NCBI GenBank assembly: GCA_031310005.1
Contig: CM062383.1
Span: 2,542,001-2,606,000, forward strand
Direction: 5' to 3'
DNA length: 64,000 bases
From: Dactylellina haptotyla
Taxonomy: Eukaryota; Ascomycota; Orbiliomycetes; Orbiliales; Orbiliaceae
The notes under the pieces are model-generated. The model searched no databases, was not told the DNA's origin, and saw nothing but the letters and a program-made list of their open reading frames with translations. Position numbers and translations under genes: made by a program. Each line of letters begins with the position of its first letter. Positions within the stretch are counted from its first letter, which is position 1. Positions 50,980-60,903 of this stretch are shown here, piece by piece.

Positions 50980-51396
50980 ATGAATCCTCCAGCTCTCTTC
51001 AAACTCGTAGTTATGAGGAATGACAGTAGTTGGGATAAGGCCAAGAGTTGGGCATACGATAGCTGGGAGCACCCCGCCCCTAGCATTTCAGACACGTCGC
51101 TCTTTCAGTGTCAAAATTTCTGTGGACCGTCCCTCGACTTTCTTTCGAAAACGATTGATAAAATCAACGAGAATAAGGAACTCAAAGAAACTGGTTGCAA
51201 GTATTACCTTGTCGGCGTTGATACTGGCCGATGGGGGGGAAGTTGGAGGCAGAGATGTATTGTGCTGAAGTTAGTAAAACCAAAAGAGGAATTCGAGGCC
51301 TTTATGAAACCAAAGCTAGTTTTGGACTCCAGTGGGGCTGATTTGTGCACGCCCACAGCGTCGGACTATGGAGATGGAACGTCGGCTGATATATAG
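50980..51396 (+). CDS. Array gene 1: unknown single-domain protein
   Basis: An intronless gene of 138 residues. The ATG at 50980 is chosen because it sits just before the conserved strand FKLVVMRND; a GTG two codons earlier is not a start in fungi. The domain then reads WEHPAP, a helix with CGPSLDFLSKTIDKINENKEL, a strand CKYYLVGVD and a final strand RCIVLKLVKP. The same order occurs in every member of the array. The tail is low complexity (Ser/Thr/Asp). There is no signal peptide, membrane segment or recognised family. It is head-to-head with F-box copy 1, an arrangement repeated at 51697-53720. Confidence 0.75.
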   Translation: MNPPALFKLVVMRNDSSWDKAKSWAYDSWEHPAPSISDTSLFQCQNFCGPSLDFLSKTIDKINENKELKETGCKYYLVGVDTGRWGGSWRQRCIVLKLVKPKEEFEAFMKPKLVLDSSGADLCTPTASDYGDGTSADI

Positions 51397-51696
51397 AGAT
51401 AGATGGAAAAGCCGCTTTAGCTAGCTAGCTATGTATGGTCTCGCAGGCCAGACAACACAACAAAAATCTGCTATATACATAGATACTTTCGTTATTCGTC
51501 TAGTGAAACTCAGTACTTAGAACATGTATCACAAAAGTTCGATCAAGTTAAAATATGCCGCAGTTCTTCATTTGGACCTAGTTACCTCGATACCACATTT
51601 CTCAATCTAGGTATTACGCTAATAACGCAAAATAAAATATAAAAAGGGTCATTTTGTTCCTATGTTGTAGATATATCCGGTCTTGAGACATATAAT
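51397..51696. other. Intergenic region
   Basis: Exactly 300 bp between the array gene 1 stop and the F-box copy 2 stop; AT-rich convergent 3' region, nothing else seen. Confidence 0.5.
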
Positions 51697-53119
51697 TTAT
51701 GTATGTGAATTTCTGAGTGTTTTCAAATAAATTGTCGCCGACAAATGTTTCCGATCAGTTATGCGGGGGTATAGATTGTGGGGGCCGTATGTTATTTCAT
51801 AATTCTTTATTAATTCTGGGCCGAGGATTTTTTGGGTGATTTCCTCCGTGGTCGAAACCGTAGTACGGACTTGTTTGACACTCGGTGAAAATCGTTCAAT
51901 AGCGGTTATGATATCTTGATGACTTATGGTATCCCTATTCTCAGGGAGATCGTCCTGAATATCGACAAACTCGACATTCGGGAAGATTCTCACCCACTCT
52001 GAAATCTAAAACACCCTTATTAAAAACTATACTCAAAATTTCGGGGGGAAATAAGAGGGAGAAAGCGAAACTGCGTACTCTCTTTGAATATGTGCCCTCA
52101 AAGTAAGGATAACGTGTCCCCATAAAGACAATGATTTTCAAGTCGGTGACCTTCTTAGGGTCAATTGAAAACCACTTGTCCAACGCTATACCACATTGAA
52201 ACTTTTCCTTCACAATAAGCGTTGTCATTGCTGGTAACGACCACAAACGATCGCTTCGTGTCCTTTCGTATGTCGGCAGGGAGTCCTTCAATACGAACCA
52301 GTACCGTGAACTAATTTCCCAATCACGAATTGCGAACCTAGTTACGGTCTTTGTGGCTGGTGTGAGGACTTTGGCGAAGATCTCTACGAGGTTTTTACTC
52401 ATATGCTCGTTCGATTTACCGTATGGCTCGAAGCTTATGCTTAGTGCCTCTAACCGCGCATGAGGATGTGACGGGTCGACTTCGCTTATCTCGTAATCTC
52501 TGAATGTAAGTAGGTCCTGATGCTCGTAGTGGCGGAAGCATATAAAAAGATCCTTCAGACCGAGACATTCTGTTACGACGGTTTTTATCCCTTCTGTAAA
52601 CGGGATAACTAGCATTTCTTGTGCCTTATAGAAATTCGCAACCCTTAGGCTAGAAAAATGAGGCAGCAAGTCATGAATAGCCCCAGATATGGATGTATTG
52701 TTGTCATCCATGATATGTCCATAACTAGCTTTGCAGTGAATCACAAGTATCCTGTCGTAGATTAGTAGGAGTCCAACGTTTTTGCGTCAGCCAAATATTA
52801 AGAAACCCAAGGCTCCTGAGTAGCGATGGTACACTCACCTGACCAAATATCCATAATCTTTATATATCTTCAATCTTTCTTCTCTTCGTAGAAAAGTACG
52901 CTGTATATCTCCTTGGCGTTCAAATTCAAGCTCACAACAGGCGTAGAGGTGGCGACGGATCGATTCATAGAATACACGACAAGTCAAAGCTATCTGACCC
53001 GTCTTCAAAACGGTAGTGGATCGTTCAGGATCGTATAGATAGAGCTCGAGTTCTTCACTGATGGCTTCTTTGAGGATATCATCTAGAATCTCGACTGGTA
53101 GATCTAAGAGCGCCCGCAT
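51697..53119 (-). CDS. F-box-like protein, copy 2
   Basis: Exons 52839-53119, 52079-52751 and 51697-52005 give 420 residues. The layout matches copy 1: a first exon of 281 nt ending in GTCAG, a shorter middle exon (673 against 700 nt) and a last exon of 309 nt. The F-box-like start is LLDLPVEILDDILKEAISEE, then LTCRVFYESIRRHLYACC. Later shared blocks include CLGLKDLFI, HPHARLEALSISFEP, LWSLPAMTTLIVKE and NYEITYGP. The two proteins are clearly paralogous but well diverged, so the duplication is not recent. Both copies keep open frames, which argues that both are under selection. Confidence 0.8.
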
Positions 53120-53250
53120 TGAGATCTTTGTGGGTTGTTACGCTTTCGCGTAAGAGTTATAGATTAAAATTTTGATTTTCTACCAGTTTATCAGATGGTC
53201 GAAACGCAGTTGCGGCGCTGCGTTTGCAAGAAAAAGAGCTGTAGCTGTTA
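53120..53250. other. Short spacer upstream of F-box copy 2
   Basis: Only about 130 bp lie between the F-box copy 2 start and the decayed array copy, against 594 bp in the first unit, suggesting deletion or decay here. Confidence 0.35.
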
Positions 53251-53720
53251 GTGACCATCGTGCCAGCCGCCAGCACGCAGCGTATGATGAGGGGGTGCTT
53301 CACCACGTACAAAACTTTGGGTTCAGATCCTATCGAAAATTGGCATATATTTAAATCGAAGTTCAGATATATCGATATTGACCCTAGTCCTGATCTCAGA
53401 TATTGGAGATCATGGAAGTCACAATCTCGACACTTAATTAGCCTCGCGACGAGGAAAGACGGGAGTGAAACAGCCGACCCCACAATTGTTGTAAATTCCA
53501 ACCCAACACGCTGCTGGCCAGCCATAGTCCAGTCTGGTTACGAGACTGGCCATAGTCAACATATGCCATCAAACAGGCGGTGTGTTGTCTTGAAGTTGAC
53601 CAAGTTCAGATAAGAATTCGAGGCCGTATCTAGACCAAAGGCTTTACTTACATCCGCAATTTCGGAATATGGAAGAAAGTCCGGCAGATCCTGCCTGTGG
53701 TGTAGGGTAGTCTTACGTTA
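53251..53720 (+). pseudogene. Decayed copy of array gene 1
   Basis: The 3' part is clearly homologous to array gene 1. RRCVVLKLTKF, then after a stop EFEAVSRPKALL and SEYG, match RQRCIVLKLVKPKEEFEAFMKPKLVL and SDYG of gene 1. At the DNA level AAGAATTCGAGGCCGTATCT pairs with GAGGAATTCGAGGCCTTTAT. A TAA stop interrupts the frame at 53612, and about 27 nt are missing just before the final SEYG match. The upstream part is barely alignable (DPSPDL against HPAPSI), so the 5' limit is uncertain. This is a host gene relic, lying in the same position relative to F-box copy 2 as gene 1 does to copy 1. Confidence 0.6.
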
Positions 53721-59396: not shown

Positions 59397-59757
59397 TATG
59401 GATCCTGTTCGATTTTATCTTCGACTTGAAGGTGTTTTATTTCATTATAAACCTCCGTAGTGCGAATTAATAACATATTTCATTATTGCTTCTATGACCG
59501 TTCGTGATGTGGTAGCGCGAGACAATGTGGTGGTACATTATCTTGGGTCACCTATTCCAAATAACTCCAACTCACTCATAAATCCAAAACTTGCTATGGC
59601 CAGATTCACTGTAATCGAGTCATCTAAAACGAGACGCCAGCTTGGTTAAATTCCAAACATTTTACCTCGTGAGACTGATGCTGCTAGACCAAAACAGTCC
59701 ATCACACAAAAATAATCTATAATATTTATTGAAAGCATCACTGTACAACCTGTAACT
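59397..59757. other. Intergenic region
   Basis: About 360 bp between array genes 5 and 6 with no supported frame. Confidence 0.45.
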
Positions 59758-60192
59758 ATGGTGTGCTCCACAGAATTCGTCCCTTACACCTACAAGCTCG
59801 CCTTCTTCCGCAAAGAAGACCAATCTCGCAAATACAAAATCCGCTGCCGCGACAGCCACACAAGCCCAACTTCAGAATCCGGCCTCTTCCTGCCCTTCCG
59901 GAACGAAGGCATCGAAGACCACCATGCCGCAATAGCAATGTACGTCTTCCTCGATATATTGAACACCGCCAAATCCCTCAAAGAATACGGACGCAACCAA
60001 CGGTGGTATATAGAATTTCTGTACATGCCTCCTGAGAACTTCTGGTTCAAGCAACCCTGGGAGTTCTGCGTGGTGTTCAGGCTCAAAGAGGAGACGTATC
60101 CGTATCCTATTATTCCCGGGTTGCGGGATATCGTCGGGGATGTGGGTATTTCCGACTATGACGGGCACGAGTTGGAGGGTTATCTTGTGTAG
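59758..60192 (+). CDS. Array gene 6: unknown single-domain protein, most diverged
   Basis: Intronless, 144 residues. The first strand YKLAFFRKEDQ and the last strand EFCVVFRLKEE fit the family. In between, the acidic-Pro motif is replaced by HTSPTSESG and the helix by AIAMYVFLDILNTAKSL, followed by RWYIEFLYM. It is the least similar member and could be dropped if only sequence identity counted; position, strand, length and order of elements support membership. The 5' half has strongly C-ending codons. Function unknown. Confidence 0.68.
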   Translation: MVCSTEFVPYTYKLAFFRKEDQSRKYKIRCRDSHTSPTSESGLFLPFRNEGIEDHHAAIAMYVFLDILNTAKSLKEYGRNQRWYIEFLYMPPENFWFKQPWEFCVVFRLKEETYPYPIIPGLRDIVGDVGISDYDGHELEGYLV

Positions 60193-60438
60193 ATGATCGG
60201 TGGGCGGATCTTTATCGGTGATAGGTCGTATCTCAATTTTAGTACAGTGATATTCCTGAGAGCTTGTAAGATCCGACTCATAGCCGGAGAAGAATAAAAG
60301 GTGGCATGCAGAATTTTTAACATTGTCATTCATTTAATAAATTTGTAACACGCCTAAGAACCAACTATCTGTTGATACTGGTACTATTGCATATTCTTTG
60401 TAGTCAAGAGGAGAAGATAATAAAGCACCGTATTCATC

Positions 60439-60903
60439 ATGACGGCAGTAACCCAACCTCTCCCTTACAAATTCGTGGTCTTCAAAAACACGCAGCCGTT
60501 CGACTGGGACCGCGCCGAAATCTACGCCTTTGATCAAAAGTCCGACCCGACGCTCACAAAGGACATGACGCTGCCCGTCCACTTCCTGTCGGAATTCTGT
60601 GTAGCCGCACTCAGCTCCATTACTGGATATCTTCGACAGCTCAACCAAAGCATCAAGGAAACACCGAAAGGATACGCGTGGAATATAACCTCGATCAGGA
60701 TCGAACGCGATGAAAGCGGTACGCTTTCTTCTCGAGAATTTGCAATCATCGTCGAGCTGGTCAATAGCGGTGCCGAATTCCTCAAAGTTTACCCCGGAGG
60801 GACGGTGCTTGATCAGATATTTCCTGAGGATGAAGATGACGACGAAGATTATGAGGACCAATCTATCGTGGACTACGGATCCTCGCCTTCTACCTGTAAT
60901 TAA
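60439..60903 (+). CDS. Array gene 7: unknown single-domain protein with acidic tail
   Basis: Intronless, 154 residues. The domain (about 9-115) reads YKFVVFKNTQPFDWDRAEI, FDQKSDPTL, LSEFCVAALSSITGYLRQLN, YAWNITSIRIERDESG and EFAIIVELVNS. The tail is strongly acidic (EDEDDDEDYEDQS). It pairs best with gene 5 (both have a FC-x-AL helix start and a Y-x-W-x-I strand). Genes 5 and 7 probably descend from one duplication, with gene 6 a more diverged relative. Function unknown. The DDRGK-domain gene starts 170 bp downstream on the same strand. Confidence 0.75.
   Translation: MTAVTQPLPYKFVVFKNTQPFDWDRAEIYAFDQKSDPTLTKDMTLPVHFLSEFCVAALSSITGYLRQLNQSIKETPKGYAWNITSIRIERDESGTLSSREFAIIVELVNSGAEFLKVYPGGTVLDQIFPEDEDDDEDYEDQSIVDYGSSPSTCN

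Follow-up and report, generated by a model that had tools for sequence, protein, structure and literature searches.

The 64,000-nucleotide stretch of contig CM062383.1 analysed here (the window) contains, between positions 50980 and 60903, seven plus-strand open reading frames (ORFs), which we call g1 to g7 after their starts at 50980, 54349, 55864, 57734, 58917, 59758 and 60439. A first-pass annotation of the sequence had described a same-strand array of seven genes sharing one domain, and we find all seven ATG-initiated ORFs at exactly the coordinates it gave. Chance does not readily produce such an arrangement: region 50900-61000 holds seven plus-strand ORFs of at least 130 amino acids, compared with a mean of 0.135 and a maximum of 1 in 200 first-order Markov simulations. 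In all five codon-aligned paralogue pairs examined, third codon positions are the most divergent (for g3 and g4, differences at positions 1, 2 and 3 number 95, 90 and 164), and this excess indicates that the array genes evolve as coding sequence. The seven ORFs are genuine coding genes. Judged by sequence, they constitute an undescribed lineage-specific tandem family whose domain appears in none of the sequence libraries searched.

The members of the array are given below. Except where a tblastn value is stated, E values come from a leave-one-out test, in which each domain copy and its Dactylellina haptotyla orthologue were removed from the profile and the background consisted of 1990 six-frame pieces of the window.

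g1, 50980..51396, plus strand: single-domain gene, 138 aa; after the domain come an EFEAF-type helix and a tail containing CTPTAS; E 9.8e-19.
g2, 54349..55179, plus strand: two-domain gene, 276 aa; tail GMGTPTS; domain a E 1.4e-21, domain b E 1.6e-8; 264/276 residues identical to D. haptotyla H072_4791.
g3, 55864..56655, plus strand: two-domain gene, 263 aa; tail TITPAST; domain a E 3.1e-22, domain b E 5.7e-16; 210/263 identical to H072_4790; structural model mabd0dab0b345.
g4, 57734..58540, plus strand: two-domain gene, 268 aa; tail IVTPTST; domain a E 6e-17, domain b E 6.1e-18.
g5, 58917..59396, plus strand: single-domain gene, 159 aa; E 1.6e-27; 143/159 identical to H072_4788; structural model mea497269d34e.
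g6, 59758..60192, plus strand: single-domain gene, 144 aa; marginal by sequence, E 0.0072; tail without Thr-Pro; 140/144 identical to H072_4787.
g7, 60439..60903, plus strand: single-domain gene, 154 aa; acidic tail without Thr-Pro; E 1.5e-12.
Degenerate g1-like copy, 53575..53667, plus strand: 31 residues corresponding to g1 91-121, interrupted by one in-frame stop; tblastn E 8.4e-7, 48% identity.

The shared domain spans about 100 residues in the order beta-beta-alpha-beta-beta. It begins with Y/F-K-L/F-V/A, continues through an acidic loop followed by an invariant Pro, a helix ending near Asn and a Y/W-containing strand, and closes with a hydrophobic strand ending near Leu. The "D..E-P-P" loop of the first-pass annotation proved looser than described: across the 14 rows of our domain alignment, a single Pro is invariant, and Asn and Leu are each nearly so at one position. 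The leave-one-out profile recovered nine of the ten proposed domain copies at E values between 1.6e-8 and 1.6e-27, with the best unrelated piece at 0.046 to 0.87, and most copies are also linked in pairwise comparison. The tenth copy, g6, reached only 13.0 bits against 7.2 for the best unrelated piece, which is not convincing alone; its position and start motif back its membership, and its sequence does so weakly. Both predicted models, which together cover three domains of g3 and g5, have an alpha/beta fold, in agreement with a single common domain rather than unrelated folds. The degenerate eighth copy escaped the domain profile and was found by tblastn; neither it nor the Thr-Pro tail described below had been noticed in the first-pass annotation.

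Sequence libraries offered no known family for this domain. None of the seven window proteins has a Pfam family at the curated cut-off, which bears out the earlier impression of an unrecognised family. The same holds for all 14 domain-alignment rows and for relatives P0003, P0004 and P0007 (the scan of relatives took in these three and left out P0001 and P0006). We rejected several candidates as too weak: DUF6092, the best Pfam match of the window proteins (E 0.1, 13.3 bits, cut-off 28.7), the best Pfam match of the domain rows (E 0.028), the best NCBIfam match (E 0.22) and the best PDB sequence match (E 0.67, an unrelated hydrogenase subunit). The 14-row domain profile matched no PDB sequence at E up to 10. 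The absence of a family from the structural match lists was given no weight as evidence. A literature search by six locus tags found no functional paper on the array genes; Arthrobotrys oligospora Ao4g24 is an unrelated SNF5-like protein of 103.5 kDa.

Homologues were sought among 5.8 billion proteins, in a search whose reach is limited to relatives with common short exact words and suitable length. At the thresholds used, it returned seven distinct homologues, all from Orbiliaceae: D. haptotyla H072_4791, H072_4790, H072_4788 and H072_4787 (matching g2, g3, g5 and g6, respectively), Orbilia javanica TWF718_002476, Arthrobotrys megalospora TWF281_011686 and Orbilia oligospora TWF128_008897. 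The proposal of a lineage-specific family is thus upheld, and these best hits place the window itself in Orbiliaceae, probably in or near Dactylellina. The member closest to the Arthrobotrys and Orbilia relatives is g5, which is 38-45% identical to the O. javanica and A. megalospora proteins. TWF128_008897 (P0007) represents a cluster of 10 sequences and has two domains; a Thr-Pro tail closes each half, so annotation may have joined two adjacent genes into one. The four H072 proteins are all recorded on a contig of the same length (359167) and their tags run consecutively except for 4789, so gene order in the annotated D. haptotyla genome probably matches that of the array. No orthologue of g1, g4 or g7 was retrieved, which the limits of the word-based search may explain.

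The four annotated orthologues are exactly as long as their counterparts (276, 263, 159 and 144 aa for g2, g3, g5 and g6), which supports a single-exon structure for those four of the seven genes. The first-pass annotation considered a uniformly intronless array distinctive, a point we do not retain, since tandem copies of one intronless gene would be intronless anyway. In the window's own genome, nine protein queries located family members nowhere outside this cluster, except for two weak matches on C3 (E 0.302) and C5:3274500 (E 0.053, two stops) that we take as chance; this search scores only its best candidates, and very diverged copies could escape it. The family is therefore at a single locus and restricted to Orbiliaceae, with both descriptions dependent on search sensitivity. 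Because it seemingly occupies one place in the genome, a single deletion in a laboratory strain could remove every member, making its role directly testable.

The seven genes lie as adjacent paralogues within 10 kb, g6 being the marginal one, and both pairwise comparison and a domain tree bear out local duplication with divergence. In the tree, which has several long branches whose placement the program flagged with a warning, the first domains of g2, g3 and g4 cluster together (87/90), as do their second domains (98/96), and g5, g6 and g7 cluster with the Arthrobotrys and Orbilia proteins (96/96). The separate clustering of first and second domains implies that the domain fusion is older than the split of g2-g4. 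Repeat-induced point mutation (RIP) as a cause of the divergence is unsupported in the array: its TA/AT of 0.80 and (CA+TG)/(AC+GT) of 1.11 fall outside the cut-offs given in PMC3828140. The upstream regions also lack a common promoter word, the top 8-mer occurring in 3 of 7, a count that random sets of seven reach in 259 of 300 draws (22 draws reach 4).

Two minus-strand F-box-like genes, apparently multi-exon, lie on either side of g1 (48859-50391 and 51697-53137). Their putative first exons are as follows.

F-box-like gene A, 50101..50376, minus strand: putative first exon; Pfam F-box-like E 3.9e-4, 20.6 bits, cut-off 24.3; adjoins g1 and is not a family member.
F-box-like gene B, 52835..53119, minus strand: putative first exon; Pfam F-box-like E 0.023, below the cut-off; adjoins the degenerate copy and is not a family member.

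Further coding sequence lies at 49195-49977 for gene A and 51941-52786 for gene B. The two proteins are 40% identical, and the start of gene B is 71% identical to that of gene A over 95 nt at a spacing of 2734 nt. An F-box-like gene and an array gene were thus probably duplicated as one unit. Contig C7 (E 3e-13) and contig C4 (E 3.5e-4) of the same genome carry further relatives of gene B. RIP indices in the F-box-like genes are mixed, gene A (0.93) and gene B (0.98) each passing a single cut-off out of two. Elsewhere in the window, an ORF for a cation efflux transporter lies upstream of the array at 46401-47243 (Pfam Cation_efflux E 1.2e-12), and two very long ORFs occupy 3743-11408, one with a DBL-homology domain (E 1.3e-39) and the next with PH-type domains (E 9.6e-42).

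Beyond the domain, most family members share a short tail motif. Thr-Pro follows the last strand in 9 of 11 tails (g6 and g7 lack it), compared with a shuffled mean of 1.7 and none of 20000 shuffles reaching 9; this count omits four D. haptotyla near-duplicates (three with Thr-Pro, one without) and is descriptive, because the rows are related and longer patterns were picked after inspection. Proline-directed kinases recognise Thr-Pro as the core of their sites, and Thr-Pro-x-x-Ser/Thr is similar to phosphodegrons.

Several explanations of the array can be weighed against these observations. One plausible reading, which we nevertheless place somewhat below an even chance, is that this lineage-specific family turns over slowly by birth and death and serves no single specialised role: most tandem copies drift or die and a few, such as g2 and g6, survive in separate housekeeping roles. 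The degenerate copy beside live ones fits this reading, as does the very unequal identity to D. haptotyla orthologues (97.2% for g6, 95.7% for g2, 89.9% for g5 and 79.8% for g3). PMC3828140 also describes tandem duplication with subsequent divergence among small secreted orphan proteins in D. haptotyla and A. oligospora. However, exact length is kept in all four retrieved orthologues, third-position differences dominate and different species retain the tail motif, which argues that these members at least are under constraint. The first-pass annotation had suggested changing selection; the orthologue identities are indeed unequal (79.8 to 97.2%), but protein identities alone do not separate positive selection from relaxed constraint.

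The reading we develop here, tentatively and as no likelier than plain birth and death, is that of an oligomerising adaptor with a phospho-regulated tail. Its basis is shown by the data: the array encodes proteins of one or two domain copies, apparently intracellular, and it expanded at one locus by duplicating in tandem, by a single domain fusion and by diverging, the fusion that gave rise to two-domain g2-g4 predating their duplication. The domain itself would most likely serve in protein binding or self-assembly, along the general lines of GFRP and the KCTD C-terminal domain (KCTD-CTD). Phosphorylation of the conserved Thr-Pro in the disordered tail by a proline-directed kinase could switch protein stability or partners, and the paralogues would be diverged adaptors serving the same kind of complex with different partners. 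A bolder and very doubtful version casts the array proteins as GFRP/KCTD-CTD-like ring subunits unique to predatory fungi. Paralogues with one and with two domains would then combine in hetero-oligomeric rings, with ring composition governed by phosphorylation of the Thr-Pro tails, which the adjacent F-box proteins might read, so that one locus would supply a variable adaptor kit evolved with the lineage. If true, this would be a rare case of the GFRP/KCTD-CTD fold expanding in fungi; to our knowledge, such expansion is rare.

A role of the genes in self/non-self recognition or vegetative incompatibility, in which rapidly changing members such as g3 would act as polymorphic recognisers, appears improbable. 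g3 differs from its orthologue at 53/263 residues, across both domains (15/103 and 23/106) as well as the linker (10/33) and tail (5/21), whereas g6, only 3 kb away, differs at 4/144; were the window to come from D. haptotyla itself, the pace of change in g3 would be extremely high. In g5 the differences lie mostly in the tail (10/49, against 6/110 elsewhere). Yet no HET, NLR or lipase-type domain occurs in any array protein, g2 and g6 are highly conserved, and we found no evidence for the recognition, self/non-self or antagonism roles guessed at earlier. Effector-like proteins aimed at nematode prey are a slim prospect: the lineage is apparently nematode-trapping and its small orphan proteins include many that are infection-induced (PMC3828140), but by hydropathy alone none of the seven proteins has a signal-peptide-like N-terminus (best 10-residue mean in the first 35 residues 0.52-1.54).

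The closest known systems place the adaptor reading in context. The GFRP and KCTD-CTD fold (PMC7618933) appears to resemble the array domain in its small antiparallel sheet with helices and recurred as a weak structural match. Two helices, a five-stranded antiparallel sheet and assembly into a closed pentamer characterise that fold; the models of the array proteins are of single chains. According to PMC7618933, KCTD1 and GFRP have almost no sequence in common, so the missing PDB sequence match says little about this fold. The BTB domain, a feature of KCTD proteins, gave no match in any of the seven window proteins at E up to 10. Trypanosomatid Q4D6Q6 and Q586B2 also count among the closest known systems (PMC10899635). 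The family adds an undescribed domain, whose history of duplication at one locus is clean, to a fungal lineage in which known genes explain nematode trapping poorly. With the lineage- and species-specific orphan genes that nematode-trapping fungi carry in tandem (Meerupati et al. 2013, PMC3828140), the likeness lies in short orphans without a Pfam domain that duplicated in tandem and then diverged. That paper emphasises secreted and often infection-induced proteins, whereas the array proteins show no obvious signal peptide, and it proposes RIP-driven divergence, whereas the array values lie outside its RIP cut-offs. Within these differences, the array is the kind of tandem family already reported for these fungi.
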